DNA from: Amycolatopsis deserti
GTDB lineage: Bacteria; Actinomycetota; Actinomycetes; Mycobacteriales; Pseudonocardiaceae
Assembly (NCBI RefSeq): GCF_014653945.1
Contig: NZ_BNAU01000001.1
Location: 744,001 to 808,000, forward strand
DNA length: 64,000 nt
Reading direction: 5' to 3'
This document shows, one piece after another, positions 41,537 to 58,784 of the stretch (position 1 is the first letter of the stretch; each line of letters opens with the position of its first letter). Made by a program: the position numbers and the translations under genes. The notes below the pieces were generated by a model. The model was not told the origin of the DNA. It saw nothing but the letters and a program-made list of their open reading frames with translations, and made no database searches.

Positions 41537-41822
41537 CCGGGGTCGGACCCGCTGCGCGCCACCGATCCCGCTCCCACCTCGGCCACCGGCAGCCCGGGGA
41601 ACTCCGCGGGCGGGCCGGTGGGTGACGATCACCGCCGGGCGGCAGCCCACCAGGCGCGGCGAGGTCGGCGGCCGTCGCGCCGTCCGGGTGCGCCATCGGC
41701 TCGTCGACGGCAGCACGGGGGCGCGCGCCACGCCGAGCGGCTGACGCTCCCCGCCGGACCGCGTCGTGCCGTGCGCGCCCAGCGGGGTGTCCAGCGCGCG
41801 GCGTCCAGGTCCGCTGAGGACG
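41521..41822 (-). pseudogene. 3' remnant of an ABC transporter ATPase
   Basis: On the minus strand, fragments of one ABC ATPase are spread over three frames: ALDTPLGAHG with SGGERQPLGVARA (signature motif) in one, VDEPMAHPDGATAADLA (Walker B/D-loop) in the next, VIVTHRPA (switch His) back in the first, and an EFPGLPVAEVGAG tail ending at TAG 41521-41523 in the third. The order is correct, so this is a gene end with several frameshifts and an eroded Walker B. The pattern resembles CydC/CydD-type exporters. The 5' part is absent. Confidence 0.7.
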
Positions 41823-42185
41823 TCATGTGGGATCACCGTCCAGCACTTGGGTGTGGCGCTGGACGAGCGAGTCGTCGAGCGCTGCGGGCGGGTGGACGAT
41901 GAGCAGGTCCCGCTGCGGGTGAGTGGCTAGGAGGACGCGGTCGCCGGGGAGCAGGCAGCAGCGGTGCCGGACGGTGGCGGGTAGGCGGAGGTGGCCCTTC
42001 TTGGTCACGCTGAACACGCCGTGGTCGTCGTGGCGGATGAGGAGGAGTCCGTGCGCTTCGCGGATATCCAGCCGGGTGTCCGGCGTCCAAGAGAGCGCGG
42101 TCAGCACCGCCCGGTCGGCCACGCGGCCCCGGCAGTCGACGGCCGCCATCCCGTACACGACGCTGCTCGTACGAGGCGCCGGCAT
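41823..42185 (-). CDS. AbrB/MazE-type DNA-binding domain protein
   Basis: 120-residue protein. The core VFSVTKKGHLRLPATVRHRC then LLPGDRVLLATHP is a SpoVT-AbrB swapped-hairpin-like domain, seen in small actinomycete regulators near integrase genes. ATG 42185 begins MPAPRTSSVVYG, the usual family start; an upstream GTG at 42290 is possible but encodes low-complexity sequence. It stands at the left edge of the accessory region. Confidence 0.75.
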   Translation of the reverse strand: MPAPRTSSVVYGMAAVDCRGRVADRAVLTALSWTPDTRLDIREAHGLLLIRHDDHGVFSVTKKGHLRLPATVRHRCCLLPGDRVLLATHPQRDLLIVHPPAALDDSLVQRHTQVLDGDPT

Positions 42186-42381: not shown

Positions 42382-42822
42382 GAAACTGTGTCCGAGGGGG
42401 GAGTTGCACACTACCCACACGGCTCTTGCTGCCTAACGGGTTGTACAGGCGGGAGCTCGAAGATGGGTCGCTCACCAAGTAGTGTTGACTAATTCCGTCA
42501 AAGGAGCCTGCACCTTCCGGAGGGTCGCCGGCCTCCGAGTGGGACCACCGCTGCGCGGTTGCCTGCAACACTCGTGTCCGTTCCACGGGGCAAGATTGCG
42601 TGACAATACGATCACAGAACGTCCGTCGATGTGGCCGTAGAGTAACAGTAGATGTTGGCGACGCGACAAGGCAGTTGCTCACTGACATGAGGAAGGCGGT
42701 TATGTCTGCAACCACTACCGTTGGTGTCTGTGCTCTTTCATTCTTGCGGCAGGACAGGCCAAGTCGTGGACTTCCTAAGCAAATTGCCCGACATGAATGA
42801 GTGACACAGGTTTACGTCGATA

Positions 42823-42842
42823 GCAAGCCAACACTGGCTTGC
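42823..42842. promoter_or_regulatory. palindrome GCAAGCCA-ACAC-TGGCTTGC before the nuclease gene
   Basis: Perfect 8-4-8 inverted repeat ending 26 bp before the nuclease start codon. Either an operator for the cassette or an mRNA leader hairpin. Confidence 0.5.
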
Positions 42843-42868
42843 CCCAACAAGGGGGTGATGCGGCACTG

Positions 42869-43789
42869 ATGAGCAAGCGAATATCTACAGCGGCCTATCA
42901 AGCCTTGCGAAACGCTCTGCCGGTCATTGTATGGTACAAAAGAAGCTTCAAGCAGTACCTTCACACGGCGCTACGTGATCACCTGGAACTGCTCCACGGT
43001 ATCAACTTCGACGCGAGTAAGCGCGAAGTATCCGATGAACTCGTCGAGCGTTTGATTCGTAACGAGAATGCATACCAGGATGTCACTTTGCGACTCATGC
43101 TTGAGATCGCTAACCTGAACAAGTTTCCTGAGCTCGAGCGCCATGAAGACAGCGATCAATTGATTCAGAAAGCCCGCGCCGCAGTGGACGAACTGCGAGA
43201 ACAGACGGCTGGGCATGAGCAGCTCATCGTCGAGCGCGAACGTATTGCGGCGGAGCGCGCCGCATACACGCAGCAAGCCGAACTGCAACGTCGGTTTGCC
43301 GACGAGCTCGATGAGTTGAAGCGAGACTTCTATCGGTTGACTGCCATGAACGACCAGCGGCAGCAACGTGGCCGGGAATTTGAGGAGTTCCTCCATCGGT
43401 TGTTCAATATTTTCGATCTAGAGCCGCGCCTGTCCTACGTTGTCCGTTGGGAGCAGATTGACGGTGCTTTCAGCTTCGACACTGACGATTATATTTTGGA
43501 GGCAAAATGGACAAGCTCGCCGATCGAGGTCAAGGAGGCTACACACTTCGCTGATAAGGTTCGAGAGAAGGGTAAAAATGCACTCGGATTGCTTATCAGT
43601 ATGGGTGGCTTCTCGGCGGGCACCATCGAAAAGTATAGTCGGAGAACCCCGTTTATGACGATCGACGCGGCCGACATTATATGTGTACTAGATCAGCGAG
43701 CTCGCCTCGATGACCTGCTTCGAAGAAAGAAGCGCCATGCTAACGAGACTGGAGAATGCTACTTTCCAGCCGGTAAACTTTTTGAGTGA
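42869..43789 (+). CDS. PD-(D/E)XK restriction endonuclease-like protein
   Basis: 306-residue protein in three parts: a helical N-terminal region (1-95), a charged coiled coil (about 100-165), and a C-terminal nuclease-like domain. The nuclease signature is visible as GREFEEF (169-174), QIDGAF with Asp198, and YILEAKW with Glu211 and Lys213. This arrangement matches Mrr-like or type IV-like restriction nucleases. Codon use is much less GC-rich than in the host genes. ATG 42869 is chosen; an upstream in-frame TTG at 42839 would add ten residues. First gene of the low-GC cassette with an ATPase; a DNA-targeting defence role is inferred. Confidence 0.75.
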   Translation: MSKRISTAAYQALRNALPVIVWYKRSFKQYLHTALRDHLELLHGINFDASKREVSDELVERLIRNENAYQDVTLRLMLEIANLNKFPELERHEDSDQLIQKARAAVDELREQTAGHEQLIVERERIAAERAAYTQQAELQRRFADELDELKRDFYRLTAMNDQRQQRGREFEEFLHRLFNIFDLEPRLSYVVRWEQIDGAFSFDTDDYILEAKWTSSPIEVKEATHFADKVREKGKNALGLLISMGGFSAGTIEKYSRRTPFMTIDAADIICVLDQRARLDDLLRRKKRHANETGECYFPAGKLFE

Positions 43790-44147
43790 TATCTCACCGT
43801 CCGGACCGCGAAGGCGGAACTTCGTCAGTTCTGCAGGACCTTGTTCGGGCTCCACCGGAGGCCGTCGCCCTGGGATTGCTGTCTGACTTCTGCGAACGTT
43901 AGCTGACGCCAACCGCTGGCAGGTCGGCGGGACGGGTTGGCCCCGTCCTGCCCGTCCCATGAGTAGCACGAGGTGCGGCCAAGGGGGACCGGCGAGACGC
44001 AAGGTCGCGTCCCGTCCCGCGCTCGGGCGTGGCTGGCGATGCAGCAGCAGCTTGCGCTTTGGCTTCGCGAATACCTCTAGGCGACGCGTGCAACGCTCGT
44101 AATATAAACTGCATAGAACGACAGCCAGGCACTTATTTGGGGGACTT
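43790..44147. other. 358-bp intergenic stretch in the low-GC cassette
   Basis: No gene is supportable. It has a stem GGACGGG (43930-43936) / CCCGTCC (43942-43948) with a 5-nt loop and another CCCGTCCC 2 bp on, possibly a terminator of the nuclease gene. An AT-rich segment, AATATAAACTGCAT near 44,100, could be the ATPase promoter. Confidence 0.4.
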
Positions 44148-45368
44148 GTGACGCAAGATCGAAAGCCGGAAGACATTTTCACACCTAGAACGATTGTATC
44201 GCGTGAAATGTTTGCGCGTCGTAATGAACCGGACTTGCACGGAAATCCTGGGCTCCAGGACAACCTCTGCGATGCTCTACGCGATCGAGGTGGTCAAGTG
44301 TTGGTTTATGGCGACACCGGCGTTGGCAAGTCATCGCTTGTCAAGTATGCTGCGGAGGACGAATCGCTCGCGTCTTTGACCATTGAGTGTCTCTCATCGA
44401 AATCTTATTCTGAATTGATCGAAGATGGAATGGTAGAAGTTCGCGAGATAAAGAAGACGACAAGTCTGTCGGCCGGCGCTGAAGTTGAAGCATCGGGTAA
44501 GGTCCCTTTCTTGCTGACACTGAAGGGGAAGCTTCAAGGTAAAGTCGGCCGGGAAAGCGAATTTGAAGTTATCAACAAGCCTCCTCTAGACGTGCTACTT
44601 GAGGCGATGCAAATAGCTAATAAGAAGCTTATAATATTCGACAACTTTCAGAACATCACTAGCGAGTCGGATCGCTTGCTGATTGCGCAGACGCTAGAAT
44701 TCCTGGCTGACCGGTCGGCATCGACAGGTGACATTAAGGCTGTTGTGATTGGTATAGCCGAAGATGCGAGTTCGTTACTGGGCGGCTCGGGATCGTTTCA
44801 GCGCAGAACGACAGAGGTCGGCGTTCCGCGTATGCCTGACGACGAGATCGCAGAAATCTTGAACAGGGGCTTCAGTAAGTTGGGGATCGGTGTTTCCCCT
44901 GCGATTATCAATAAGCTTGTTTTCTATAGTGATGGTTTTCCTTATTTTGGCCATCTCCTCGGCCTGCAAGTCGCGAGAGCGGTTAGGCGAGAAGGTTCTA
45001 TCTTCGCGGCGGAGACCATGGTTGAGACTGCATTGGCGAGAGCTGTTCGGGATGTGGATAAATCGTATAACGATCGGACTAGGAGAGCGTTTGAAGCTGG
45101 CGGTGAGGTTCAGCCTAGGAGGCGCATACTCGAGATCTTGTCGATGTCTGATAAACGCGAATGGCGAAGCGCTGATGTTATATCTGCCTATGAAGACCGC
45201 TTTGAAAAGCGTGCCGATTATGCGTTTCTTCATACGTCATTAGCTCAGCTCACCGATGTTAAGCACGGTGCAGTTCTAAGTCGCTCAGGAACGCGGAATT
45301 CATACATTTACAGGTTCAGTGATCCTCAGATGCGCCCTTACCTACGGTTGACGGCTTTCGGAAAGTAG
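44148..45368 (+). CDS. AAA-type ATPase (ORC/STAND-like)
   Basis: 406-residue ATPase. Walker A is VYGDTGVGKSSL near residues 53-64 and Walker B is KKLIIFDNFQN near residue 160. A C-terminal winged-helix-like part is suggested by RRILEILSMSDKREW and an end YRFSDPQMRPYLRL, as in ORC/Cdc6-like and NACHT-related ATPases. GTG 44148 has GGGGGA upstream. Low-GC codon use like the nuclease. Between nuclease and helical protein genes, it could be a sensor or effector ATPase of a defence system; the target is unknown. Confidence 0.75.
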   Translation: MTQDRKPEDIFTPRTIVSREMFARRNEPDLHGNPGLQDNLCDALRDRGGQVLVYGDTGVGKSSLVKYAAEDESLASLTIECLSSKSYSELIEDGMVEVREIKKTTSLSAGAEVEASGKVPFLLTLKGKLQGKVGRESEFEVINKPPLDVLLEAMQIANKKLIIFDNFQNITSESDRLLIAQTLEFLADRSASTGDIKAVVIGIAEDASSLLGGSGSFQRRTTEVGVPRMPDDEIAEILNRGFSKLGIGVSPAIINKLVFYSDGFPYFGHLLGLQVARAVRREGSIFAAETMVETALARAVRDVDKSYNDRTRRAFEAGGEVQPRRRILEILSMSDKREWRSADVISAYEDRFEKRADYAFLHTSLAQLTDVKHGAVLSRSGTRNSYIYRFSDPQMRPYLRLTAFGK

Positions 45369-45472
45369 GCCAAGTGCTTTCAGTAGGTAGTTCGAATTGA
45401 TTTCGGTGTCGGGGATAGAGGCTGGTGATTGATCTGAAATTCGATGCCTCGTCGTAAATGGGGAAAGTTAGA

Positions 45473-46666
45473 ATGAACGAATATCTCGAAAGTTGGCGTG
45501 AGCACGGAGATACCTCGGAGGCGTCCTATGTGCGATTTGGTGGCCTCGAGGAGATTCTAGGAACGGCTCTTTCTAACACGATTCATCCGAAGTTCGATGC
45601 TGTTCAGAAGGAACTTCTTCCGGTCATTAGATGGTTCTTCGGCAGTAACCTTCGTCCGGAGGGGTACGCGATAGGTAACCACGCCTTTAATGATTTCGCG
45701 GAGTTGCTCACCCTACTATCGACGGGGCTTGGTCGAAGTGCTGCGCGGGCAGCCAGGGCACTATTTGAGCACGGAGTCCATTTCTGCGAAGTTTACAGTG
45801 ATCTCGAAGCCGGCATGCGATATGAGCGACACGTGAGCGTGTCTGCGCAGCGTCAGGCCAAGATCAGGACAGGTCTCGATATTCTCTCCGGCAGGGACCA
45901 TCAGGTTGAAGCTCGACGGTTGTCTAATCTAGGTCGGGACAGCCTGAAGGACTATCGAGATGCGTTAGCCGATTATGGCCACTCGTTCGAAAAGGGGTGG
46001 TCGGCAACCAGTCTGTATGACATGAGCGAACGACATGGTAAGAGTCACTTGTATGAGGTGTATCGATTTCTGTCTGAAGTGACCCACGGTAGCGCTGGCG
46101 GAGTCCTTGGTACCTACAGAAAGATGCAAGGATCAGGTGTTCATCGGACTGGCTTGTCTTTAGAGCTGTCCGTCCTTGCGTACTACCATGGAGTGTTCTT
46201 TTTTCGGGAGTTTATCCGTGACGTGATGCGTATCGTCGAAGGCGTTGAATGTGGACGGCTCCTTGGTCGCTTAGACGATTTGCTGGCGTGTTGGCCAGAC
46301 TACAGGAAGATCCTTCTCGCAGTGGATCAAAGTTTGTGGCCAAGCCAGCCTCCGGCGTCCGCGATTGCGTTAGTGAAGGCCTATGAAACAGGTGTTTGCA
46401 GATGGTACCTCTACGAGCCAGATCTTGAGTTTGCGTTCGCGGCCGACGCCCCGATGGATGCCGGTGACCTCGAGGCTGAAGCAATTATGAAAGCTCGGAG
46501 TACCGCTGGCCCGGCATCGCCTTCGGAAGGTAGCCATTTCGTCGTCGCTACGGTCCCAAACATCACGGTCACTCTAAAGTCGGGAGCGAGACCGGTGCCG
46601 ATCCGGGCGCTGCTGGGAATTCCGGATGGAGCAGAGCTGCCGGCGAGTGTGGTTGACCAGATCTAA
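45473..46666 (+). CDS. unrecognised helical protein of the low-GC cassette
   Basis: 397-residue protein of unknown function. It is predicted mostly helical, with RAARALFEHGVHFCEVYSD near residue 100 and RFLSEVTHGSAGGV near 205, somewhat like the DUF5677 helical domain found in some abortive-infection loci; I am not certain of this match. The C-terminal third changes character and ends with a short beta segment VATVPNITVTLKSG. ATG 45473 has GGGGAAAG upstream. It shares the low GC of the two genes before it. Confidence 0.65.
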   Translation: MNEYLESWREHGDTSEASYVRFGGLEEILGTALSNTIHPKFDAVQKELLPVIRWFFGSNLRPEGYAIGNHAFNDFAELLTLLSTGLGRSAARAARALFEHGVHFCEVYSDLEAGMRYERHVSVSAQRQAKIRTGLDILSGRDHQVEARRLSNLGRDSLKDYRDALADYGHSFEKGWSATSLYDMSERHGKSHLYEVYRFLSEVTHGSAGGVLGTYRKMQGSGVHRTGLSLELSVLAYYHGVFFFREFIRDVMRIVEGVECGRLLGRLDDLLACWPDYRKILLAVDQSLWPSQPPASAIALVKAYETGVCRWYLYEPDLEFAFAADAPMDAGDLEAEAIMKARSTAGPASPSEGSHFVVATVPNITVTLKSGARPVPIRALLGIPDGAELPASVVDQI

Positions 46667-46850
46667 GAGTTGTGCGTTGACGATGATGTTGTGAGCTTTC
46701 ATCAGTTTCAGTCCCTCAGTTCGGTAAGGCGCAGCCGCTGAAGGTTCGTGTCGTCCAGCGTTGGCATCGCTGGACGACACCGGTATGTGTCCCCGCTGTG
46801 GCCCCGGAGAGGCCTCGTGGTCGTGCCGCAACGCGATCAAGCTCTCCTGT

Positions 46851-47414
46851 ATGCGCTACGAAGAATACGACGGCGTGACGGAGTCAAGGCCTACAGTTCT
46901 TTCGCGCCCCGGAACCCGTCGCGAACGGGTAGGCGGTAACGAGGCGCTGGCGCGACCTGATCATTCACCGGTCGGAGCATTCGATCCAGGTGCTGGAGGT
47001 GCGCCATACCTGTACGAGGCGATGGCTGATCACTTGGCTGCACGTGTCGCCGCCGGGGAGTTGGCGGACGGGACGCGGCTGCCGTCGGAGGTGCGGCTTG
47101 CTCGCGAGTACGGCGTGTCTCTCGGGACGGCGCGTCACGCGACCGAGATCCTGCGCGAGCGTGGGCTCGCGCGGACTGTGCGGGCCAAGGGGACCTTCAT
47201 CGTTCGGCGAGAGCGGGTGGTCGGGGGTGGCGAGGAGGGATATCTCGTCCTGGAGGGGACGGCGGGAGCTGGCAGTCCTGTCCCGATCCTGGTTGGGCGG
47301 GCGGAACCCGTGATCCAGGTCGGAGTCAGCGGTCCGAGAGCGAGGTTGTCGAGCGAAGCGGCGGCTGCCCTTCGCGAGGCGATCAGTGGTGCGTGGGCCG
47401 GTGAGGGCTCGTGA
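46851..47414 (+). CDS. GntR-family regulator of the mobile element (KorSA-like)
   Basis: 187-residue protein with a GntR winged helix: LYEAMADHLAARVAAGELAD, LPSEVRLAREYGVSLGTARH, RERGLARTVRAKGTFIV. GntR proteins of this type (KorSA of pSAM2) repress transfer and replication genes in actinomycete integrative elements. The start is uncertain: ATG 46851, an upstream ATG at 46785 or a TTG at 46761. The C-terminal part lacks a recognisable effector domain. Confidence 0.7.
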   Translation: MRYEEYDGVTESRPTVLSRPGTRRERVGGNEALARPDHSPVGAFDPGAGGAPYLYEAMADHLAARVAAGELADGTRLPSEVRLAREYGVSLGTARHATEILRERGLARTVRAKGTFIVRRERVVGGGEEGYLVLEGTAGAGSPVPILVGRAEPVIQVGVSGPRARLSSEAAAALREAISGAWAGEGS

Positions 47415-47677
47415 TCGTTCTCGCGCGGCCGGTGCGTGGCACGGTTGCGGAATCTCAATGCGTCGCTCACCTGGTCTGGGTGCCTCGGGCAGGCCGGCCG
47501 GAGGTGCTCGCTGCGTTCTGTGGTGCGGAATTTGGGCCGGGTGAGCTCGAGCTGCTGACTGGTATCGCGGGTGCGCCGTGTGAGGGCTGCTTGCTTCGGA
47601 TTGCGTGTATTCGGCGGACGGTTCAGCGTGCTCAGGCCGATGATCGTCGCCAGGTTGGCGCGCGCGTGTCAGACTGA
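47411..47677 (+). CDS. small cysteine-containing hypothetical protein
   Basis: 88-residue protein overlapping the GntR stop by 4 nt (GTGA), so it is translated with it. Cys residues in SQCVAHLVW, FCGAEF and PCEGCLLRIACI could bind a metal. No family is recognised. It sits 4 bp before the HTH-Nudix gene, suggesting one operon. Confidence 0.6.
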   Translation: MIVLARPVRGTVAESQCVAHLVWVPRAGRPEVLAAFCGAEFGPGELELLTGIAGAPCEGCLLRIACIRRTVQRAQADDRRQVGARVSD

Positions 47678-47681
47678 AATC

Positions 47682-49199
47682 ATGGTTGAATCGGCTCTGC
47701 GTCAGCTCCGTGTGCCTCGCTACCGGACTGTGCTTGAGCAGAAGATCCGTGAACGGCGGATGACCCTCGAGGAGTTCGCTGAGTACGCCGAGACGTTCGC
47801 GCGGGAGCGGGGCGAGCCGGGGACGCTCAGCGTTCGTCACTTGAAGCGGTTGATGGCGGGAAAGGGGCCGAACGGCCGACCGCTCGGTCCGCTGCGGCCG
47901 GCGACCGCGCGGCTGCTGGAGCGGATCTTCGAGGTCAGCGCGGACGAGTTGCTCGGTAAGCCCGGCGATCAACCGGCTGGAGGCGACCGAGGGCGAGGGG
48001 ACGCCGACGACGTCGAGCGGTCGTGTGCTGAGTACAGCTTCGGCGTGACCGGCATAGCGGATCGGCAGGTGCGCCGAAGCCGCGTGGGGCGTTCGCGTAT
48101 TGCGGATGCGCTCGCCGAGTACTACCGGGCCGACGACGAGCTCTATGAGGTTCGGAGCGCAGGGAGCGTTGTACGGACCAGTATCTGCACGCGAGCGGAT
48201 TGGCTCGAACTGTTGTGCCCCATCCCGGCGGGTGTGCAGCTCCAGCTCGCACACGATGCGGGCGAGCTGGAGCCGTCAGACGCGGAGGCTGCTGCCGAAC
48301 GGCTGGCCGAAGCCAAGGCTCTTTACGTTCGGCTCGTGGACGCGCCGCTGTACCGGCTGCTCGACGTCGAGGTGAACCGCGGCTCGGTGTCAGGTGTGGT
48401 CGGTCTGACGTCGTTCATGAACTATGCCCTGTCTGCCGACTTACTCGAGGCCGAGCTTGCCGATCTTGTGGCGGGTGACGGACCTATCAAGCGGGGCTCG
48501 CTGCCGCTGCGGGACCGGCACCTGCCGGACCTCAGGGCTGTTCATGAACTCAGCACGCGTTTGTGCGCGGGAGGTGTGCTCGCCCTGTGTGCCATCGCGC
48601 GGCCGGCTGACCCGTACCGGGGTCCGGCCGACTACGCCCTGCTTGTCCAGGAACGATCCGACCAAGTTGTGAACGCCGCGCGTCGGCTCTCGGTCATTCC
48701 GAAGGGCTTCCACCAGCCGCTGGTCGACGCCAGCGGCGAGACCTCGATCGGTGCGACGTTGCTTCGCGAGATGGAGGAGGAGCTGTTCGGGCGGGGCGAT
48801 GTCGATGGCACCGCCGGCCCGCATCGAGCCGCAGCACCAATGCACCTGTCGCGGTTGTCTGGGCCGATGCGCTGGCTGACCGAGAGGCCGGATCGGTTGC
48901 GGATGGAGTGCACGGGCTTCGGCTTCAACCTTGTGAGCGGCAACTACGAGTTCGCCAGCCTGATCGTGATCGAGGACGAGGAGTTCTGGACTCGCTACGG
49001 CGGCCAGGTCGAGGCCAACTGGGAGACCGGCGGTATGCGGATCTACTCGAGCCGGGACCAGGAGCTGATCACGCAGTTGATCAGCGACGAGTCGTGGTGC
49101 AACGAGGGTCTGTTCGCGTTCCTGCAGGGCGTGCGGCGGTTGCGCGAGATCGGCGGAAAGCGCGTCGACCTGCCCGCGGTCGAGGTCCTAGGTGGCTGA
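47682..49199 (+). CDS. HTH-Nudix fusion protein, copy 1 (Pif-like)
   Basis: 505-residue protein. The N-terminus (about 15-90) is an XRE-type helical domain (LSVRHLKRLMAGKGPNGRPL, RLLERIFEVSADELLG). A central region has DYALLVQERSDQVVNAARRL and a Nudix box: GET at 352, then ATLLREMEEELFG with the R-E-x2-E-E core at 362-367. The pSAM2 immunity factor Pif is a Nudix protein, so a transfer-immunity role is plausible. ATG 47682 is chosen because the upstream frame encodes no domain. It pairs with an inverted paralogue at 49,538-51,088. Confidence 0.75.
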   Translation: MVESALRQLRVPRYRTVLEQKIRERRMTLEEFAEYAETFARERGEPGTLSVRHLKRLMAGKGPNGRPLGPLRPATARLLERIFEVSADELLGKPGDQPAGGDRGRGDADDVERSCAEYSFGVTGIADRQVRRSRVGRSRIADALAEYYRADDELYEVRSAGSVVRTSICTRADWLELLCPIPAGVQLQLAHDAGELEPSDAEAAAERLAEAKALYVRLVDAPLYRLLDVEVNRGSVSGVVGLTSFMNYALSADLLEAELADLVAGDGPIKRGSLPLRDRHLPDLRAVHELSTRLCAGGVLALCAIARPADPYRGPADYALLVQERSDQVVNAARRLSVIPKGFHQPLVDASGETSIGATLLREMEEELFGRGDVDGTAGPHRAAAPMHLSRLSGPMRWLTERPDRLRMECTGFGFNLVSGNYEFASLIVIEDEEFWTRYGGQVEANWETGGMRIYSSRDQELITQLISDESWCNEGLFAFLQGVRRLREIGGKRVDLPAVEVLGG

Positions 49200-49538
49200 G
49201 GGCCAGCGGACGGTGACCACCACGGCGTCACTAAGGGCTTCCCAGGAGTGATCGATGCCCGGACCCCAGACGACGTAGTCGCCCTGGCGCTGCATGGTCG
49301 TGCTGCCCTCGGTGAGGTCGATCCGGAATGTGCCCTGCACCAACAGGAGCAGCGTGGTCCGCTGATCGTCCTTGGTCCACTCGGCGCGCTTGTCGCCGGC
49401 GGGGTGGACACCCCATTTGACCTCGACGTCCTTGCTCGAGCGGACGTCGTCAGCGGGTTCGATGAAGTGGCCGAGCAGCCAGCCGCGGTTGGCGTCGCCG
49501 TCGTCATTGGCGTTGCCTCGGTACCAGTTGCTGCCCAC
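49188..49538 (-). CDS. small cupin-fold protein
   Basis: 116-residue protein with a cupin pattern: HPAGDKRAEW, LLLLVQGTFRIDLTEG, GDYVVWGPGIDHSWEALSDA. The GTG start overlaps the stop of HTH-Nudix copy 2 (TAGTG), so it is coupled to it. Its 3' end overlaps copy 1's end by 12 bp on the opposite strand. It may bind a small ligand or act with the Nudix protein. Confidence 0.75.
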   Translation of the reverse strand: MGSNWYRGNANDDGDANRGWLLGHFIEPADDVRSSKDVEVKWGVHPAGDKRAEWTKDDQRTTLLLLVQGTFRIDLTEGSTTMQRQGDYVVWGPGIDHSWEALSDAVVVTVRWPSAT

Positions 49539-51088
49539 TAGACCTCCCACTCGATCTCCGGCAGGTTCACCCGCTCCCCGCCGATCTGCGCGAGCCGACG
49601 CAGGCCCTGGAGCAGGGCGAACAGCCCTTCGTTGCTCCACGCTACATCGCTGATCAGGTCGGTCAGCAGCCGACGGTCGAGGCTCGAGTACTGCCGCAGC
49701 GCGGAGGACTCCCAGTTGGCTTCGACCTGCCCGCCGAAGCGCCTCCAGAACTCCTCGTCCTCGATCACGATCAGGCCGGCGAACTCGAAGTTTCCGCTGA
49801 TCAAGTTGAGGCCGAAGCCCGTGCACTCCATCCGGAGCCGGTCCGGCTTCTCCGTCAGCCAGCGCATCGGCTTTGACAAGCGGCTCGGGTGCATCGGGTC
49901 GGCGGCGCGTTGCTGGCCGAGCGTGTTGTCGATGTCGTCGCGGCCGAACAGCTCCTCTTCCATCTCGCGCCGCAGCGTCGCGCCGATTCGGGTGTCCGCC
50001 CGGTAGTCCGTCATCGGCTGGTGGAAGCCCTTGGGAATCACGGCCAGCTGACGTGCGGCGTTGACGACTCGGCCGGAGCGCTCCTGCACGAGCAGCAGGT
50101 AGTCAGCCGGACCGCGGAACGGGTCGGCTGGGCGTGCGACGGCGGTGAGCGCGAGGGTTCCGCCCGCACAGAGCCGGTTGGAGAGGTCGAGAACGGACCC
50201 GGCGTCAGGCAGGTAGCGGTGCCGGAGGGGAGACGTCTGCGGGGTGACCTCCGTGCCCGCGGCGAGCGTGTCGATGAGTTCGCCTTCGAGCAGGTCCATC
50301 GTCAGCGCGTAGCGGACGAACTCGGTGATGGCTGCTGAGCCCCCGAGGGTGCCTTTCCGGACGTCGGCCGAGATGAGCCGGTAGAGCGGCATGTCCACGA
50401 GGCGGATGCCGAGCGCGAGCGTCTCGGCGAGTCGCTGTGCGGCGTGGCCGGCGGCTTCCTCGTCGAGACTCTCATCCTGTGCGCCGGTGTCGGCGAGCTG
50501 AACCTGATCATTGTGCGGGGTGAGGGCGCAGTCGAGGTCCAGCCAGGCCGCGGACGTGAGGACGGTCGTCGCCGAATCGCCCCCGTCGTGACGTGCGGAG
50601 TAGCAGCCGTAGCCCTGCGGGAGATCGCGGTAGTAGTTGGCAAGGGCGCGAGCGACGTCGCGTTGACGCACCCTGCCCCGGCGGTTCCCGCGGTCTTCGA
50701 GTTCGTGGACGTCCACGCTGGCGAGCCGGTCAGCCACGTCGCGGCGACTCGTGCCCGGCGCTCGTCGGGCGTGGCGGTCCAGCCAGTCGAGCGCGGCACC
50801 GATGTGCGGATCGGCGCCCAAGCGCTGCTCAGCCTCGGATGTCGGCCGTGAAGATCCGGAGTTGGTCAAGGCCGCGAAACGCTCCTGCGCGGGCTGCGAC
50901 GCTTGCTCCAGCGCAGTGTCAAGGAGCTGCTGCATTTCCGATTTCGGGCGCAGCGTCGGCTTTTGGTGCCAGGAAGCAACGGTGCGTACACCGATCCCGA
51001 GGTGTTCGGCGAATGCCTCGTTGCTGAGTCGCAGCGCCGATTGAAGCGCGCACGCCGTGGCGCCGGTCCAGCCGTCGAGCAGGCTCAT
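49538..51088 (-). CDS. HTH-Nudix fusion protein, copy 2 (Pif-like)
   Basis: 516-residue paralogue of copy 1 on the other strand. The N-terminal XRE domain is RLSNEAFAEHLGIGVRTVAS; the shared C-terminal half includes RGPADYLLLVQERSGRVVNA and GATLRREMEEELFGRDD. The GET of copy 1 is ADT here, so the Nudix box is less complete. ATG 51088 has GGAG upstream; an in-frame GTG at 51136 lies inside a block of repeated TGCACT motifs. The N-terminal halves differ more than the C-terminal halves. Confidence 0.75.
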   Translation of the reverse strand: MSLLDGWTGATACALQSALRLSNEAFAEHLGIGVRTVASWHQKPTLRPKSEMQQLLDTALEQASQPAQERFAALTNSGSSRPTSEAEQRLGADPHIGAALDWLDRHARRAPGTSRRDVADRLASVDVHELEDRGNRRGRVRQRDVARALANYYRDLPQGYGCYSARHDGGDSATTVLTSAAWLDLDCALTPHNDQVQLADTGAQDESLDEEAAGHAAQRLAETLALGIRLVDMPLYRLISADVRKGTLGGSAAITEFVRYALTMDLLEGELIDTLAAGTEVTPQTSPLRHRYLPDAGSVLDLSNRLCAGGTLALTAVARPADPFRGPADYLLLVQERSGRVVNAARQLAVIPKGFHQPMTDYRADTRIGATLRREMEEELFGRDDIDNTLGQQRAADPMHPSRLSKPMRWLTEKPDRLRMECTGFGLNLISGNFEFAGLIVIEDEEFWRRFGGQVEANWESSALRQYSSLDRRLLTDLISDVAWSNEGLFALLQGLRRLAQIGGERVNLPEIEWEV

Positions 51089-51108
51089 CGTGCTCCTGAA
51101 CTCGTCTT

Positions 51109-51184
51109 GTGCAGTGAACCTGCACTGGTCGTGCACTCGGGTGGCACTGGATGTGCATGGGGTGCGAGGTCGATTTCCAGTGCA
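51109..51184. repeat. cluster of TGCACT-type motifs upstream of HTH-Nudix copy 2
   Basis: Six related short motifs in 76 bp: GTGCAGTG (51109), TGCACTGG (51121), GTGCACT (51131), GGCACTGG (51143), ATGTGCAT (51151) and CCAGTGCA (51177), the last being the reverse complement of the second. They lie between the XRE gene and HTH-Nudix copy 2 and are likely regulatory. Confidence 0.5.
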
Positions 51185-51232
51185 ATTACAGGCATGGAAA
51201 ACAACGGCTTCCGGAAACGGAAAACCATCGGG

Positions 51233-51616
51233 CTACCGCTTCGGGCGGACGTGCTTGAGCACGGTCGCGACGTCGGTCTGCAAGGCGTCGAGACGGTCGA
51301 CGATCTCGCTCATCTGACGTTCGAGTTGCTCCAGGCGCGTCCACAGCGTGTCGCCGCGATCCGTGACCGGCTCATGGAGTTCGGGCGGTCGGCGTCCGTG
51401 CAGCACTGCGTCCAGGTGCTGGGGGTGCCAGCCAAGAGCGACCGAGAGGGACTCCAAGGTTCGAGGGCTCCTGCGTCGCTCCACGACGTGATGTTGGATC
51501 TCCCGCACGACCGCTTGCGACACGTTCGAGCGCTTGGCGAGTTCGCGCTGAAGCCACCCGAGTTCGTTGACCCGGTCGTTGATGGCCTTGGCGACTGCCG
51601 CCCAGTCCTCCGACAC
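51233..51616 (-). CDS. XRE-family repressor-like protein
   Basis: 127-residue protein: XRE HTH LQRELAKRSNVSQAVVREI in residues 20-40, then LGWHPQHLDAVLHG and a C-terminal coiled coil (LEQLERQMSEIVDRLDALQ). It diverges from the excisionase-WhiB-transfer gene block, like the repressors that control excision and transfer in such elements. Confidence 0.8.
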   Translation of the reverse strand: MSEDWAAVAKAINDRVNELGWLQRELAKRSNVSQAVVREIQHHVVERRRSPRTLESLSVALGWHPQHLDAVLHGRRPPELHEPVTDRGDTLWTRLEQLERQMSEIVDRLDALQTDVATVLKHVRPKR

Positions 51617-51724
51617 CGATTCCTCTTCCTTCGCGCTCCGCCTCGGCGACGAGGCTAGCGGTTCCGCTCCATACCGCGGTGTAACGCGGCGCTTGTTCGG
51701 CGGCGCGCGGGAAAAGTGCGCCCA

Positions 51725-51760
51725 CTGTCTATTGAAATCAGCTGTCTATTGCTGAAATCA
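51725..51760. promoter_or_regulatory. tandem repeats upstream of the excisionase-like gene
   Basis: CTGTCTATTG is repeated at 51725-51734 and 51742-51751, and TGAAATCA at 51733-51740 and 51753-51760, giving a 36-bp block 20 bp before ATG 51781. Probable repressor or excision-protein sites. Confidence 0.55.
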
Positions 51761-51780
51761 ACGACTCGAAGGACTTCTCA

Positions 51781-51984
51781 ATGCGTATCGCTACTCGCGC
51801 CGGCCGTCCGGCGTACTACACGATTTCTCAGACCGCTTCGATGCTGGGAGTCAGTGAGCCGCGTATTCACCGCGCGATCCGGCTCGGCACGTTGCGCGCG
51901 GAGAGGCGCAATGGCCGCCTCGTGATCCCCGCCCCGGCGTTGATCAAGCTCCTCGGCCACCCGACGGTCGGAGGCGCCGGATGA
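51781..51984 (+). CDS. excisionase-like small HTH protein
   Basis: 67-residue protein with a MerR/excisionase-type winged HTH: YYTISQTASMLGVSEPRIHR then AIRLGTLRAERRNGRLVIP. It is the first gene of the forward transfer block and overlaps the next gene by 4 nt. In actinomycete elements such proteins (Xis) direct excision by the recombinase. Confidence 0.75.
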   Translation: MRIATRAGRPAYYTISQTASMLGVSEPRIHRAIRLGTLRAERRNGRLVIPAPALIKLLGHPTVGGAG

Positions 51985-52328
51985 CTGATCTCCTCTTGAT
52001 CGAGTTGGCGTGGCAGCTGGACCGGCTGCGTTGGGTCCTCACGCCCACGCTCGACCGCATCGTGAGGCGTGACGGGCTCTGCTTCTGGCGCTCCGGGGAG
52101 GCCGAGCCGCCAGAACCGTCCGGAAAGGAGCTGCCTGACCGCGAGCTGGCATCGGCTTTCTGCGCCGGGTGCCCCGTACTCGATGAGTGCTTGGAACTCG
52201 AGCTGCGCTGCGGCGGGGAGCAGACGCTGGGCATCTGGGGCGGGATGTGCGAGGACGACCGCCGGGAGTTGCACCGGTTCTGGTTGCAGCGTGGTGACCG
52301 CGCCGGCCGGCGGGGAGGCGAGGCTTGA
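51981..52328 (+). CDS. WhiB-like protein
   Basis: 115-residue protein with the WhiB Fe-S pattern: one Cys at DGLCFW, CAGCPVLDEC (CxxCx5C), then the glycine-rich turn GIWGGMCEDDRREL. WhiB proteins bind a [4Fe-4S] cluster and act as transcription factors. Copies on mobile elements are known. It overlaps both flanking genes, so it is part of the excision/transfer operon. Confidence 0.85.
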   Translation: MTDLLLIELAWQLDRLRWVLTPTLDRIVRRDGLCFWRSGEAEPPEPSGKELPDRELASAFCAGCPVLDECLELELRCGGEQTLGIWGGMCEDDRRELHRFWLQRGDRAGRRGGEA

Positions 52329-52660
52329 TGGGGAACGTCAGCCTGACGCCTGTTCAGATCTTGGCCGGCGTGGGAGTTCTCTGCGTGCTGCTGTTCGTGT
52401 GGCGGTCGGCGGCGCGGCGAGCGCGAGCGGCGGCGGACGCGGCCCGAACTGGCGCACGGTTCGCGTCGTTGGCTGGCCGGGTCTTGTTCAACGCGGCCCT
52501 GATCGTCGCGGTGCAGTGGGTGGCGATCACCTACGGACGCGGAATCGGGCTCCTGCTCGTGGTGCTCGGCGTGCCCGCCCTGTTCGCGTCGTACGCGATC
52601 ACTCGCGCGCTCACGGTCACGATGGAGGACACTCCGCGGCGGCGGGGAGGTCGCCGGTGA
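52328..52660 (+). CDS. small membrane protein of the transfer operon
   Basis: 110-residue protein with an N-terminal helix (VQILAGVGVLCVLLFVW), a basic middle segment, and two further hydrophobic stretches (VLFNAALIVAVQWVAI; IGLLLVVLGVPALFASYAI). No family recognised. The ATG shares its A with the WhiB stop. It could be a spread-type (Spd) membrane protein. Confidence 0.65.
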   Translation: MGNVSLTPVQILAGVGVLCVLLFVWRSAARRARAAADAARTGARFASLAGRVLFNAALIVAVQWVAITYGRGIGLLLVVLGVPALFASYAITRALTVTMEDTPRRRGGRR

Positions 52661-53271
52661 CGGAGCCGCTCGAGCGAGTCGCCCAGCAGGTCGACCGTTT
52701 GTGCTGGGCCGGAATCCTGCTGGGGCTCGCGTTCACGATGACCAACGTTCAGCAATTCGCGGCGGCCGGTGCGCCCGCATGGTCGCTTCGGTGGTGCGGT
52801 GCGTGGCTGCTCGACCCGATGGTCTCCCTGGTGTTACTGGCCGTGCTGCGCGCGGAGCAGGTGACGGCCCGACATGGCATCCGGACCGGTGGCTGGGCAC
52901 GTGGCGCCAAGTGGTTCACGCTCGGCGCGACCTATGTCATGAACACCTGGGAGGCGTTCGTGAACCGGTCGCCGGCGCAGGTCGTGCTGCACTCGGTGCC
53001 TCCGTTGGTGGTGTTCGTGGCGGCCGAGGCCGTCACGGATCTGCGGGACAAGCTGGGGGCCGCGATGTCTTCGGAGTCCTCGGTTGCCGAGGAGGCGGCT
53101 CGCCCGCGCGGCGTGTGGACGTCGTCCGCGGAGTACCTCGCGATGGCGCGGGCTGCCAGGACGCCGGAGACGGTGGTGACACCGGCTTGGGTCCGCGAGG
53201 TGACCGGGTGTTCGCGCGGTCTGTCTTCTCGCCTTGCGGCCGAGTTGCGGGCGGAGGGTGCGCATGGCTGA
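52657..53271 (+). CDS. DUF2637-like membrane protein (spread-protein candidate)
   Basis: 204-residue protein with about four membrane helices in the first 130 residues (GILLGLAFTMTNVQQFAA, MVSLVLLAVL, VVFVAAEAV) and a cytoplasmic tail with a small HTH-like segment, VREVTGCSRGLSSRLAAEL. This resembles DUF2637 proteins that precede FtsK-type translocases in actinomycete elements. GTG 52657 overlaps the preceding gene's stop. Confidence 0.7.
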   Translation: MTEPLERVAQQVDRLCWAGILLGLAFTMTNVQQFAAAGAPAWSLRWCGAWLLDPMVSLVLLAVLRAEQVTARHGIRTGGWARGAKWFTLGATYVMNTWEAFVNRSPAQVVLHSVPPLVVFVAAEAVTDLRDKLGAAMSSESSVAEEAARPRGVWTSSAEYLAMARAARTPETVVTPAWVREVTGCSRGLSSRLAAELRAEGAHG

Positions 53272-55345
53272 GGAGCAAAACGCCGGGCACGAGGTCGAGC
53301 GGGCCGCGCCGGTGTTCGACGCGGAGTTGGTCGATGAGGAATCACCGGTCAGCGTTGGTGCCGGCTCCCGCTGGCGTCGCCCGGCTTGGCTGACCTCTCG
53401 ACAGGAGTTCAAGCGCGCGGTCCGTGCCGTGATCGCGCTGCTGATCCGGCTGCCCTTCCGGTTCGCTTCCGCGGTTGGTCGGGGTGCTGTGTTGATGTTC
53501 CGGGTGTGGCGGAAGTGGGTCCGTGTCCACGACTACCGGGAGGCGGCTGAGCAGTCCGAGAAGCTGGCGGACAAGTTCGTGGAGATCCGGGCGCTCACGC
53601 TCTTCCGGTGGAAGGTGAGTGGAGCGGTGGCGGCCGCTGTCGGCTCGGGGTTGCTCGTCGCCTACCTGCTCTACGGTTCGGTGGCCTTGTGGGGCGCGGG
53701 CACGGTGGCAGCTGTGATGCTGGCGGTAGCCGGGCGCCGGAAGGAGGGAGCACCCGGGCGTAAGAACGTCCTGCCCGGCCCGCGGGCGCTGGCGTGGACG
53801 ATGGATCCGCAGGTGCTGGTCGACGCCTTCCGGGACGCCAAGCTGATCGGCAAGGACGAGACGCTCCGGCTGGTCGAGCGGGCGCGGCGTGTCGGCGACG
53901 GCTGGGCGATCACGGTTGACCTTCCGGCGACGCGGAAGGCCGCGGACGTGATCAAGCACCGGGATGCGCTCGCGTCCGCGCTGGCTGTCGACGAGGTCCA
54001 GTTGATCGTCGAGCGGGTCCGCGGCCGGGGTGGTCACGCTGGGCGAGTGTTCCTCTGGGTTGCTGATGAGGACCCGTATTCCGGCCCGCCGAGGAGGACT
54101 CCGCTGGTCGAGGCCGAGTGGTGGGATGCGTGGCAGCCGATTCCGTTCGGTGTGGACGCGCGCCGGCGTCGGATCGACCTGCCGCTGGTCTGGACGTCGC
54201 TCCTGGTCGGGGCGATTCCGCGACAGGGCAAGACGATGGCTGCGCGCCTGGCTGCGGCGGGCCTGATTCTCGACCCGCACACCCGGATCTACGTGTTCGA
54301 CGGGAAAGGCGGTAAGGACTGGAAGGCGGCTGAGCAGGTGGCGCACCGGTTCGTGTGCGGGGACGGCCTGCCGGATGTCCAGGCTGTGCGGGACCACCTG
54401 CTTGAGCTGGTGGTCGAGGTGCAGGCGCGATACCAGCGAATGGCCGCCCTGGACGATGAGGTATGCCCGGAGTCCAAGATCACTCCTGGAATCTCCCGTG
54501 ATCCCGGCTTGAACATGCCGATCACCGCGGTGATCATCGACGAGGTCCAGGTGTTCCTCGAGAACCCCGCCAAGATCGAGGTCGGGGCGAAGAAGATCGC
54601 GATCGGCGAGCACATCGCCGATCTGCTGGCCTACCTCGCGCGGAAGGGGCCGGCGGCCGGAATCGTCGTCGTGCTCGCGACGCAACGGCCGGATTCGCAG
54701 ACGATTCCCTCACGGCTGCGGTCGGTGCTCGGCTCGCGGTTCGCCCTGCGAGTGATGGACTGGCGGGACTCGAACATCGTGCTGGGCGAGCAGATGAACA
54801 CCCGCGGGTACGACGCGTCGGCGCTCCTGCCGAGCCACAAGGGGGTGGGCATTCTTCGGCCGGACGGCGACATGGATGCCGGGAGCGAGTCGCTCGCGAT
54901 GACGGTGTGGACGTACTACATGGGCAACCAGGACTGGCAGTCGATCTGTGCCCGTGGTCGAGCTCTGCGGGAGGCGGCCGGCACCCTGACGGGGCACGCG
55001 GCGGGGGATGACTCTCGCCGGTCGATCGACTCGACGGCGGTTGTGATGGCGCTCGGCGCGGGTGCGGGTCGATCCGAGCTGCCCGAACCGCTCGCGTCCG
55101 TCGTCGAGTACCTCGGTGACGAGCTTGAGGAACGGGAGTTCGTGCCGACCGCGGAGCTCGTGGAGGCGCTGGAGGTCGAAGCGACAGGCTTCGGACGGCA
55201 AATGGGCGAGCTGGGGTGCAGGCCGACCAGGCATTACGTGCCCTCGGAGGACGGTGAGCCGCGGCGAGTCCGCGGGTACCGCACTGCGGATCTGCGGGCC
55301 GCAGTTGATGAAATCAAGAGCAGCGCCGAACCGGACGTGAGTTGA
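53264..55345 (+). CDS. FtsK/SpoIIIE-type DNA translocase (TraB/TraSA-like)
   Basis: 693-residue translocase. It has membrane-associated segments at about 110-150 (LLVAYLLYGSVALWGAGTVA), Walker A GAIPRQGKT at 316-324, and Walker B AVIIDEVQ at 422-429, then LATQRPDSQTIP and a C-terminal winged-helix-like part. In actinomycetes one such protein moves double-stranded DNA between hyphae. ATG 53264 overlaps the membrane protein gene by 8 bp. It is the main transfer gene of the element. Confidence 0.92.
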   Translation: MAEEQNAGHEVERAAPVFDAELVDEESPVSVGAGSRWRRPAWLTSRQEFKRAVRAVIALLIRLPFRFASAVGRGAVLMFRVWRKWVRVHDYREAAEQSEKLADKFVEIRALTLFRWKVSGAVAAAVGSGLLVAYLLYGSVALWGAGTVAAVMLAVAGRRKEGAPGRKNVLPGPRALAWTMDPQVLVDAFRDAKLIGKDETLRLVERARRVGDGWAITVDLPATRKAADVIKHRDALASALAVDEVQLIVERVRGRGGHAGRVFLWVADEDPYSGPPRRTPLVEAEWWDAWQPIPFGVDARRRRIDLPLVWTSLLVGAIPRQGKTMAARLAAAGLILDPHTRIYVFDGKGGKDWKAAEQVAHRFVCGDGLPDVQAVRDHLLELVVEVQARYQRMAALDDEVCPESKITPGISRDPGLNMPITAVIIDEVQVFLENPAKIEVGAKKIAIGEHIADLLAYLARKGPAAGIVVVLATQRPDSQTIPSRLRSVLGSRFALRVMDWRDSNIVLGEQMNTRGYDASALLPSHKGVGILRPDGDMDAGSESLAMTVWTYYMGNQDWQSICARGRALREAAGTLTGHAAGDDSRRSIDSTAVVMALGAGAGRSELPEPLASVVEYLGDELEEREFVPTAELVEALEVEATGFGRQMGELGCRPTRHYVPSEDGEPRRVRGYRTADLRAAVDEIKSSAEPDVS

Positions 55346-55346
55346 G

Positions 55347-55502
55347 ATGGCCGCGCCCGATGACCACGTGATCGTCCGCGTTCCCGACCAACTCCCTAGC
55401 CTGAACAGGAAAGCTAGCGCCATACTTCTTGCCATACTGATCGAGCTGGCTGAGGTCGAGGCCCTGGACGGGCCCGGCGAGAGGGGGATCGATGACTGCT
55501 GA
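55347..55502 (+). CDS. 51-residue protein between translocase and recombinase
   Basis: Small gene: ATG one base after the translocase stop, ending TGA at 55,500-55,502, overlapping the recombinase start by 11 bp. The protein begins MAAPDDHVIVRVPD and has a hydrophobic segment SAILLAILIELAEVE. No family recognised. The tight spacing on both sides makes it likely to be translated. Confidence 0.55.
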   Translation: MAAPDDHVIVRVPDQLPSLNRKASAILLAILIELAEVEALDGPGERGIDDC

Positions 55503-57252
55503 AATCAACCACGACCCGTGGGCGACGCTCGATGACCTGCTGGGAGTCGAGGTCGCCGAGCCGGTGGACGAGAGCATCGGCCCGGTGGCCTTCTACGGCC
55601 GGTGCTCGACGGAGGACAACCAGGACCCGGAGACCTCGCACGGCTGGCAGTTGAGCAACGCGCGGAAGTTCGTCGAGCCGCTCGGCGGGAGCGTGGTGGC
55701 GGAGTTCTTCGATGTCGGGCAGTCGCGGTCGGTGCCGTGGGAGCGGCGGGAGGCGGCGAGCCGGCTGCTGAAGGCGCTGAAGGACCCCGGCCGACGATGG
55801 CAAGCGGTTGTAGTGGGGGAGGGGACGCGGTGCTGGTTCGGGAACCAGTTCTCCTTGGTAGCCCCGAAGTTCGCGGCCTACGGGGTCGATCTGTGGGTGC
55901 CGGAGCTGGGCGGGAAGTTCGATGCGCGGAACCCGTCACACAAGATGCTGATGAGCGTGCTCGGCGGGATGAGCGAGTCCGAGCGGCAGCATGTTCAGGC
56001 GCGGGTCCGGGCGGCGATGGATGCGCAGGTGATCAACGAGGGGCGGCACCAGGGCGGTCGGGCGCCGTATGGCTACAAGGTGGTGGACGGTGGGCCGCAC
56101 CCGAACCCGCGGAAGGCGGCGGAGGGGTACCGGCTGCGGGTGCTCGCCATTGATGAGGCGTCGGCCGAAGCCGTGCGACGGATTTTCGCGGAGTACATCA
56201 GCGGCAAGGGTGATCGTGCGATCGCCAACGGCCTCAATCGTGATCGGATCCCGTGTCCGTCTGCTCGCCGACCGGATCAGAACCGGCACCGGCTGGCGGA
56301 CGGGTGGCAGGGAAGTACGGTGCGGTCAATCCTGGAGAACCCGCGGTACACGGGCTAAGCGTTCTTCGGGCGCTGGACGAAGCACGAGACGTTGCTGGAC
56401 CCGGACGACGTGGCCGCTGGGCACGTCACGCGGTTTCGGAGGTCGGCACCCGATCGCGTCGTTCGGTCCCGGCTTCCGGCGCACCCGGCGATCGTGTCGG
56501 TCGAGGACTTCACCCAAGCCCAGTTGCTGAGGAGGTCGAAGGGGTCAGGCGGGTTGCGGACTGCTCGCAAGGCTGAGCGGAGTGACCGACCCACGCGGAG
56601 GGCGTATCTGTTCCGTGGTCGAATCCGGTGCGCGTACTGCCAGCGGAAGATGGAAGCGAGCCCGCGCAAGCACGGCATGTACTACCGGTGTCCAGCACGG
56701 ACTCTCGCGCCCGGCTCGCCGGCGCTGGCGGAACACCCGCCTTCGGTCTATCTGCGGGAGGAGCCGCTGATGGACGCCGTCAACACGTGGCTGGGCGGCC
56801 TGTTCGCCCGCGACAACGTTGACCGAACCGTCGCGGCGTTGGTCGCATCCCAGAGTGGCGAGGGAGCGACGTCCGGACGCGAGGTCGCCCGGCAGCGGCT
56901 CGCCAGTGCGGAGGCGAGGCTGGAGCGGTTCCGGGCGGCCATCGGTGCAGGTGTGGATCCCGCGGCCTTGGTCGACGCGATCAACGAGGCGCAGGCGCAA
57001 CGAGCAGCGGCTAGGGCTGAACTCGAGGACGCGCCTGCACCCGACCTGGTGACCGACGCCGAGGTCTACGCGATGATCGACTCACTCGGAGACGTCGGGA
57101 GGAAGCTCGCGAAAGCAAGAACGGACAGCTTGGCGGGCCTCTACGAGGCGCTCAACCTAGCTGTCCGCTACGAACACGACTCTCAGGCCGCTCAGGTCAC
57201 CATCCAACCCGTGATGCGGGTGAATAGTGTGCGTGTCCGAGGGGGGAACTGA
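55492..57252 (+). pseudogene. large serine recombinase (integrase), interrupted by a nonsense codon
   Basis: Full length would be 586 residues. The catalytic domain has YGRCSTEDNQ with Ser39, EGTRCWFGNQFS and GGMSESERQHVQARV; the recombinase domain is GGRAPYGYKVVDGG to ILENPRYTG. At codon 289 (56,356-56,358) a TAA stops the frame where the sequence continues without shift as AFFGRWTKHETLLDPDD; a Tyr codon is expected. The zinc ribbon CAYCQRK begins at residue 380 and a coiled coil follows. Loss of that part should prevent integration, so the element is probably fixed in place, unless the stop is suppressed or a sequencing error. Confidence 0.85.
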
Positions 57253-57484: not shown

Positions 57485-57611
57485 TGACTTCGGCCCTTGT
57501 TCTGATCGGACCCGCGTTCGAGCGGTCCTCCCCGGGCGAGACCTCGTGCTCAGTGCTGACCCTGGCGAGTCGAAACGGGGTTACCGGCCTGCGCCTTTAT
57601 CCTCTGTGACC

Positions 57612-58784
57612 ATGACCGTCTACCCGAGTCGAAACCGTCGTGATTCGTCGCCCAAACGGGCGGCGGAGTCGCAGGCTGAGTTTTTCGATCGGGTGGCCGG
57701 GGCGTACTGGGATCAGGTTCGCGACGTGATCAACGAGTGGTGGTCTCACCTTCCGGATCAGGCGCGGTCTGGTGTCCGTAGTCGGTTGGTGGATCGGAAC
57801 TCCGACTCGAACGTGTCTTCCGCGTTGTGGGAGTTGTATCTGCACGAGATGCTGCTCGGTTCTGGCTGCACCGTGGAGGTCGAGCAGGCGGTTGGCACCC
57901 GGGGCAAGTACCCGGACTTCCTGGTGACTCGCGATGGTGAGCAGTTCGTCCTCGAGGCGATCTGGACATCACAGCGTATTGGGGACCCTACGCAGGACGC
58001 GATGTCGGGCCGACTGCTCGATGCCATCAACGGTGTGCCGAGCCCCAACTTCTTCCTGTCGGTCTCGATCATCCGAGTCGGGTCTGTAGAGCCGCCGCAG
58101 AGGCGGCTGAAGGCGGAGCTGGTGCAGTGGCTGGGCGGTCTAGACCCCGATCGGGTCCAGGCCGACTACGAGCAGCGCCAGGTCCCGTTGCCGACCCACA
58201 TCTGGCAGGAGGCCGGATGGTCGCTCTCGTTCACGGCGATGCCACGTAGTCCCGGCGTACGCGGGCGATTCTCCAGGGGGATCGGGATCTATCCGATGAT
58301 CTGGATGCGCGACAGGTCGGACCACGTGCTTGGCGCGGTCAAAAAGAAGGGCGGGAAGTACGGCGACCTCGCGCTGCCGTTCATCGTCGCGGTGGGTCAG
58401 GCGGCACTGTTCCCCGAGGAAGAGGACATCGCGACCTCGCTTTACGGGAGTTCGGTCGAGTACGCCCACACCGGAATTGCGTCCACATTCGGTCGGCTTT
58501 CAGATGGCTATTGGTCCCCTTCTCGCGACAACGGTCACCGCCGGGTGAGCGGGGTGCTCGTCGTCGACAACCCGGCGCCCTGGACCTGGGCGAAGAACAC
58601 TCCCGTCCTGTGGCGCAGCTCCGACCCGAGGTCGATCCCGGCTCCGATTCTTCCGACGTGGGCGAGCGCGCGGCTCGCCGGGGACGAGGTCGAACGAAAG
58701 CCGGCTGCCGCCCCTGCGTACAGCGCTGTCGGCCTTGACCAGGACTGGCCGGCCGGGGAAGCATTCCCACGACACGCAGCCTGA
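57612..58784 (+). CDS. PD-(D/E)XK-like protein of unknown function
   Basis: 390-residue protein. PDFLVTRDGEQFVLEAIW at residues 101-118 resembles the PD-(D/E)XK core, but the expected Lys after Glu115-Ala is Ile117. A segment VLEAIWTS resembles YILEAKWTS of the nuclease at 42.9 kb. The C-terminal half has VGQAALFPEEEDIATSLYG and no recognised domain. ATG 57612 is used. It sits outside the recombinase end, so it may be cargo of the same element or of another insertion. Defence function is only a suggestion. Confidence 0.6.
   Translation: MTVYPSRNRRDSSPKRAAESQAEFFDRVAGAYWDQVRDVINEWWSHLPDQARSGVRSRLVDRNSDSNVSSALWELYLHEMLLGSGCTVEVEQAVGTRGKYPDFLVTRDGEQFVLEAIWTSQRIGDPTQDAMSGRLLDAINGVPSPNFFLSVSIIRVGSVEPPQRRLKAELVQWLGGLDPDRVQADYEQRQVPLPTHIWQEAGWSLSFTAMPRSPGVRGRFSRGIGIYPMIWMRDRSDHVLGAVKKKGGKYGDLALPFIVAVGQAALFPEEEDIATSLYGSSVEYAHTGIASTFGRLSDGYWSPSRDNGHRRVSGVLVVDNPAPWTWAKNTPVLWRSSDPRSIPAPILPTWASARLAGDEVERKPAAAPAYSAVGLDQDWPAGEAFPRHAA

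Follow-up and report, generated by a model that had tools for sequence, protein, structure and literature searches.

A low-GC patch in a 64,000-nucleotide stretch of the Amycolatopsis deserti genome (the window, in whose coordinates all positions are given) carries three forward-strand genes, here called A, B and C (42869–46666), which are probably three single-gene passengers, most likely defensive, stacked within one integrative element. The original prediction, made from the letters of the window, had taken the set for one novel candidate defence system; a second recognisable member of the trio was found at none of the 104 places outside this genome that hold a relative of A, B or C, and the claim of a single system is not supported. 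A false three-gene lead is removed and testable single-gene leads stand in its place, the strongest being B, which belongs to a family of lone, phage- and element-borne ORC-like ATPases with a clade-specific change of the catalytic glutamate. The case also illustrates that low-GC cargo can stack within one element and imitate an operon. A, B and C all fall into known families, and integrative elements that carry defence cargo are familiar; what appears to stand out here is the Walker B change fixed in the clade of B, together with the partnerless spread of its family.

Composition and genomic context of the cassette

The open reading frames (ORFs) of all three genes are intact. Gene A (42869–43789) encodes 306 amino acids (aa) from an ATG, with a TTG 30 bp upstream likewise open; gene B (44148–45368) begins with GTG and encodes 406 aa, and gene C (45458–46666) begins with ATG and encodes 402 aa. 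Their guanine-plus-cytosine (GC) fractions are 0.524, 0.502 and 0.543, respectively, and the 3.8-kb cassette as a whole comes to 0.533. The other 3.8-kb stretches of the window have a mean of 0.710 (standard deviation 0.024, minimum 0.651); the earlier description of three forward genes with a GC content below that of their surroundings (0.50–0.54 vs. about 0.71) was borne out. Composition varies along the cassette: A and B are separated by a 358-bp spacer (43790–44147, no strand assigned) that is GC-rich (0.637; 0.674 in its core at 43800–44100) and differs in composition from both genes, and the 89-bp gap between B and C, which lie on the same strand, has a GC fraction of 0.472. Among 31 genomes, its own included, the A–B spacer matched only itself, and it found no match in plasmids. 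In consensus scans, neither promoters (2 found vs. 2.2 expected) nor terminators (3 vs. 4.3) were in excess. As to protein types, the assignment of A to the PD-(D/E)XK nucleases, of B to the AAA ATPases and of C to helical proteins stood; the designation of C as a member of an unknown family did not, as it belongs to DUF5677.

The genomic context of the trio was evaluated on 157 loci searched by tblastn (E value 0.001), which gave 19 places with a relative of A, 80 with a relative of B and 5 with a relative of C, loci of the own genome being excluded and places fetched twice being counted a single time; some A and B matches, few in number, are partial, and some of the viral contigs are near copies of one another. 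At least 1.5 kb was present on both sides at all 19 A places, at 61 of the 80 B places and at 4 of the 5 C places. The cleanest test is provided by the four close relatives of B (80, 59, 57 and 54% identity), which are accompanied by neither A nor C. The 80% relative in Amycolatopsis sp. GM8 (locus L118) lies between a NUDIX-like and a tyrosine-integrase-like ORF; the 59% relative (L019) has a MazG-like ORF before it and, after it, a small and a transposase-like ORF; the 57% relative (L120) adjoins a DUF4145 gene, and the 54% relative (L119) an ORF without a Pfam match (with the exception of DUF4145, these neighbours were named by reading the sequences). When 77 B loci were grouped into 51 clusters at 80% identity (four of 81 loci were dropped: one duplicate, one short locus and two partial AAA matches), the most frequent family of neighbours (within 2.5 kb of B) occurred in 5 of the 51 clusters, with sides and strands mixed; the ORFs in this comparison were called mechanically, and very diverged partners would escape it. 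Since the neighbours vary, as far as these tools reach, the context does not mark the trio as a system, and a single three-gene system was rejected on these grounds.

Three genes from three families

The most secure of the three gene readings is that of A, which would, with modest confidence, be a stand-alone nuclease of the Mrr type, similar to type IV restriction enzymes. Residues 166–269 match Mrr_cat (PF04471) with an E value of 6.7e-4 and a score of 20.2 bits that narrowly misses the cut-off of 21; four plasmid-borne relatives of A (285–303 aa) pass it with 23.2–32.1 bits. In a six-row alignment E172, D198, E211 and K213, which we take to be the catalytic residues of the PD-(D/E)XK site, are invariant, so that the site of A looks intact. 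A shares with the Mrr-type restriction endonucleases the PD-(D/E)XK catalytic region with its D...E-x-K motif and the single-gene format; in contrast to Mrr, its N-terminus yields no profile match to the Mrr winged helix, and its Mrr_cat score remains slightly too low. The helical N-terminal region of A varies among distant relatives and is common to five closer ones (L125, L150–L153), which align with A over nearly the full length at 38–47% identity. The profile of effector-associated domain 8 (EAD8) matches this region weakly (E 0.19; 12.9 bits vs. a cut-off of 27), and an EAD8 search of the own genome gave zero matches, the control genomes being equally silent. In plasmids, A-like proteins are common by their nuclease domain (1371 records), none of them covering 80% of A; in a sample of the phylum, 4 of 396 genomes (own included) contained any match to A, and one of those other than the own genome was strong (51%). 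Relatives of A were found at 11 viral-contig loci, and none in phage records. A may act by cutting foreign or modified DNA, with its helical N-terminal region as the sensor.

Gene B encodes an ORC/STAND-like AAA+ ATPase with a C-terminal winged helix. The Walker A lysine (K61) and the Walker B aspartate (D165) are present in all 38 rows of the B-family alignment; the catalytic glutamate of Walker B is replaced by asparagine in all five members of the window's clade and retained in the 33 others (DN vs. DE). The AAA+ plus winged-helix architecture is shared over the whole length of B with the archaeal ATPases Pab2304 and Sso1545 and with Orc1/Cdc6, at 12–20% identity, a high root-mean-square deviation and Foldseek TM-scores of 0.43–0.48 (query length). 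An assignment of B to the Orc1/Cdc6 replication initiators was rejected (TIGR02928, 14.6 bits vs. a cut-off of 181.3), though the architecture is shared. Among the three genes only B matched a candidate model of PADLOC, and did so in part: PDC-S59 aligns with residues 43–261 (E 2e-8; model positions 32–247 of 428). The library sets no cut-off for this model, and the likeness is confined to the generic ATPase region; the altered Walker B of B's clade is a further difference. PDC-S59 is, going by its name, presumably a single-gene candidate. Within the B family, 27 of 38 proteins match PDC-S59 and 22 of 38 match mad8 at E 0.001. The phage family phrog_6841, which has no assigned function, matches B over residues 30–401 (E 4.3e-31); the copy in the window is carried by an integrative element instead.

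In phages, plasmids and integrative elements alike, relatives of B occur as an accessory gene that stands alone. Gene 30 of Kevin1 lies between the lysis genes and the integrase and adjoins a HicB-like antitoxin gene, gene 34 of Cashline lies between tail genes and integrase, and in a P2-like Salmonella record the relative is found between the replication endonuclease and portal genes; we take these positions to be sites of prophage-borne defence genes. The phage locations and the partial PDC-S59 match encourage a tentative guess that B may be an ATP-state switch that protects its carrier. An infection trigger would change the nucleotide state or the assembly of this ATP-binding protein, and its winged helix, needing no dedicated partner gene, would act on DNA to block the element that comes in; with asparagine at the place of the Walker B glutamate, hydrolysis would be slowed and the protein held in its ATP state. 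A more specific and more doubtful version holds that B represents an uncharacterised, partnerless immunity family of ORC-like AAA+/winged-helix proteins with a patchy spread across temperate phages, plasmids and integrative elements, in which the actinobacterial clade with the glutamate-to-asparagine change could have become an ATP-locked sensor and not a cycling motor.

Residues 77–215 of C match DUF5677 (PF18928) with E 4e-11 and 43.7 bits, above the cut-off of 27.1. The structural model (mean predicted local distance difference test score 76.5, from nine sequences) predicts a helical bundle and an alpha/beta C-terminal part; no Foldseek match reached E 0.001, and for a HEPN fold the VIA-align rows stayed within the background for helical bundles. 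C and five relatives differ from DUF5677 in their greater length (this part spans about 350–410 aa) and their C-terminal extension. The profile of C and its relatives, which already contained L130 and matches that locus strongly by construction, finds the remaining DUF5677 proteins of the class weakly. Besides its own gene, C was found in 1 of 72,556 plasmid records, 2 of 298 genomes of the order and 1 of 396 genomes of the phylum, and searches of phage records gave none, those of viral contigs 78 pattern matches and 0 relatives. A search of the class for DUF5677 was positive in 19 of 276 genomes (own included), with one locus (L130) holding a relative of C, an assignment that rests on tblastn. 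At locus L126 (6073–8205; genome G327), the open frame of a C relative continues without a break into DUF6602 (E 4.6e-27), a part that is matched by the PADLOC models NucC (E 1.7e-21) and PD_DExK (E 6.6e-32). This join hints at a link between DUF5677 and a nuclease; its linker is odd, and the join may therefore be two genes that share one frame. C could be a helical sensor or regulator of a nuclease.

Separate passengers or joint function

On the reading that we consider probable, the three genes would have been acquired separately, each working singly and probably directed against phage or other mobile DNA. The earlier suggestion of defence cargo keeps its plausibility through the Mrr-like A, the partial PDC-S59 match and phage relatives of B, and a PD-T7-5-like neighbour; it gains nothing from PADLOC for A and C. 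Several observations weigh against separate defensive passengers. PADLOC gave no match for A or its relatives L150 and P0007, nor for C or its relative L130, and the Kevin1 member of the B family matches mad8 and IetA weakly and PDC-S59 not at all. With 89 bp between them and a shared strand, B and C could be co-transcribed, and the low GC common to all three genes fits one acquisition. Close relatives are few (four of B, five of A at 38–47% identity, and one of C at 41%), and a young or rare trio could therefore be missed; diverged partners could also escape tblastn.

One rival explanation is a rare but real three-gene defence system, in which C or B would sense infection, B would switch with ATP and A would cut DNA. 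The shared strand, the common low GC and the location within a mobile element are in its favour, and defence systems often pair a nuclease with an ATPase; yet a second member is missing from all 104 places, the GC-rich 358-bp spacer separates A from B, and some viral contigs carry a relative of A or of B unaccompanied by the rest of the trio, which leaves this explanation very improbable. It is also improbable that B and C form a two-gene unit to which A is a stranger, or that C works with a nuclease: the short B–C gap on one strand suggests the former and the in-frame NucC-like domain at L126 the latter, but the four close relatives of B lack C, the five C places lack B, and the odd linker at L126 could mark two genes in one frame. 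A role for B, and perhaps C, in the service of the element itself and not in defence, for example in replication, partition or the exclusion of like elements, is unlikely as well; the profile scores given above set B apart from Orc1/Cdc6, its relatives in Kevin1 and Cashline sit outside the replication modules, and its position differs between two elements that have the same core.

The integrative element and its surroundings

The cassette had been placed beside an integrative element; the 15-bp repeats at the ends of this element put it inside. The 15-mer GTGTCCGAGGGGGGA has exactly three exact copies in the 7.74-Mb genome, where its backwards control has 0. Two of the copies are found on the forward strand of the window, one at the left end of the element (42388–42402), 481 bp ahead of gene A, and one within the end of the integrase gene (57233–57247); the third is the exact 3′ end of an intact tRNA-Leu(GAG). 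In genome G259, the same 15 bp terminate a homologous integrase (58–60%) and coincide with the 3′ end of tRNA-Leu(GAG). Given this copy pattern and the parallel in G259, the two window copies are best read as the attachment sites attL and attR, and the cassette consequently as cargo inside the element; the patch is best interpreted as the cargo end of an element resembling the actinomycete integrative and conjugative elements (AICEs), at about 42388–57247.

Besides the cassette, the element holds, on the forward strand, a GntR-type regulator (46761–47414; GntR E 3.6e-12 over residues 84–147, with relatives in L118 and L020), an FtsK/TraB-type transfer protein (53234–55345; FtsK_SpoIIIE at 24 bits, exactly the cut-off) and a serine integrase (55492–57252), and in addition a Spd-like protein. 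The integrase gene is broken by an in-frame TAA (56356–56358), and its Resolvase, Recombinase and Zn_ribbon_recom domains were identified in two pieces scanned separately; with this stop, the element may no longer move by itself and is possibly stranded. FtsK/TraB-type transfer protein, GntR regulator, integrase and tRNA-derived att core are shared with the AICEs. AICE integrases are usually of the tyrosine type; unlike AICEs, the element described here has a serine-type, stop-broken integrase and lies apart from the intact tRNA-Leu. Although both of its ends bear the tRNA-Leu(GAG) core, about 152 kb separate it from the intact gene for this tRNA (C1:953175), and ARAGORN found no tRNA in the window; the distance suggests a secondary site or a later move. 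The element at L118 agrees with this one in its core, which comprises FtsK (66% identity over 717 aligned positions), Spd (48%), a helix-turn-helix protein (60%), a 111-aa protein (55%) and the GntR regulator (63% over 68 positions); its B relative occupies a different position than here, next to the integrase-like ORF, behind which a tRNA-Met is located. In genome G255, a C relative is likewise near FtsK- and GntR-like genes.

The relatives compared yielded no empty site. On the left flank, two relatives are syntenic up to 41614 (99%) and 41794 (93%) and then diverge, the comparison having covered 39 kb and 19.5 kb of them; on the right flank, all ten relatives gave scattered short or repeat-like matches and no syntenic block. 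To the left of the element, 41537–41836 appears from its ORFs to be the remnant of a CydC-type ABC transporter gene; in G298, the relative with the DNA match to 41794, apparently full cyd genes, also read from ORFs, adjoin the same TetR gene. Within the element, two similar genes of 532–542 aa face each other (47571–49199 and 49538–51136); one of them has a weak NUDIX match (E 0.13), and PADLOC matched neither. Just beyond the right end, a forward gene of 412 aa (57546–58784) matches the PADLOC models PD-T7-5 (E 1.5e-10, residues 39–149) and PD-T7-1 (E 9.2e-4) and has no Pfam match at 0.01; as the PD-T7-5 match lies just outside the right repeat, a further defence-like gene flanks the element. 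Farther right, the short repeat-like DNA at 58961–59357 has several copies in genomes of the same genus, some of them at contig ends, and looks like the end of a mobile element.

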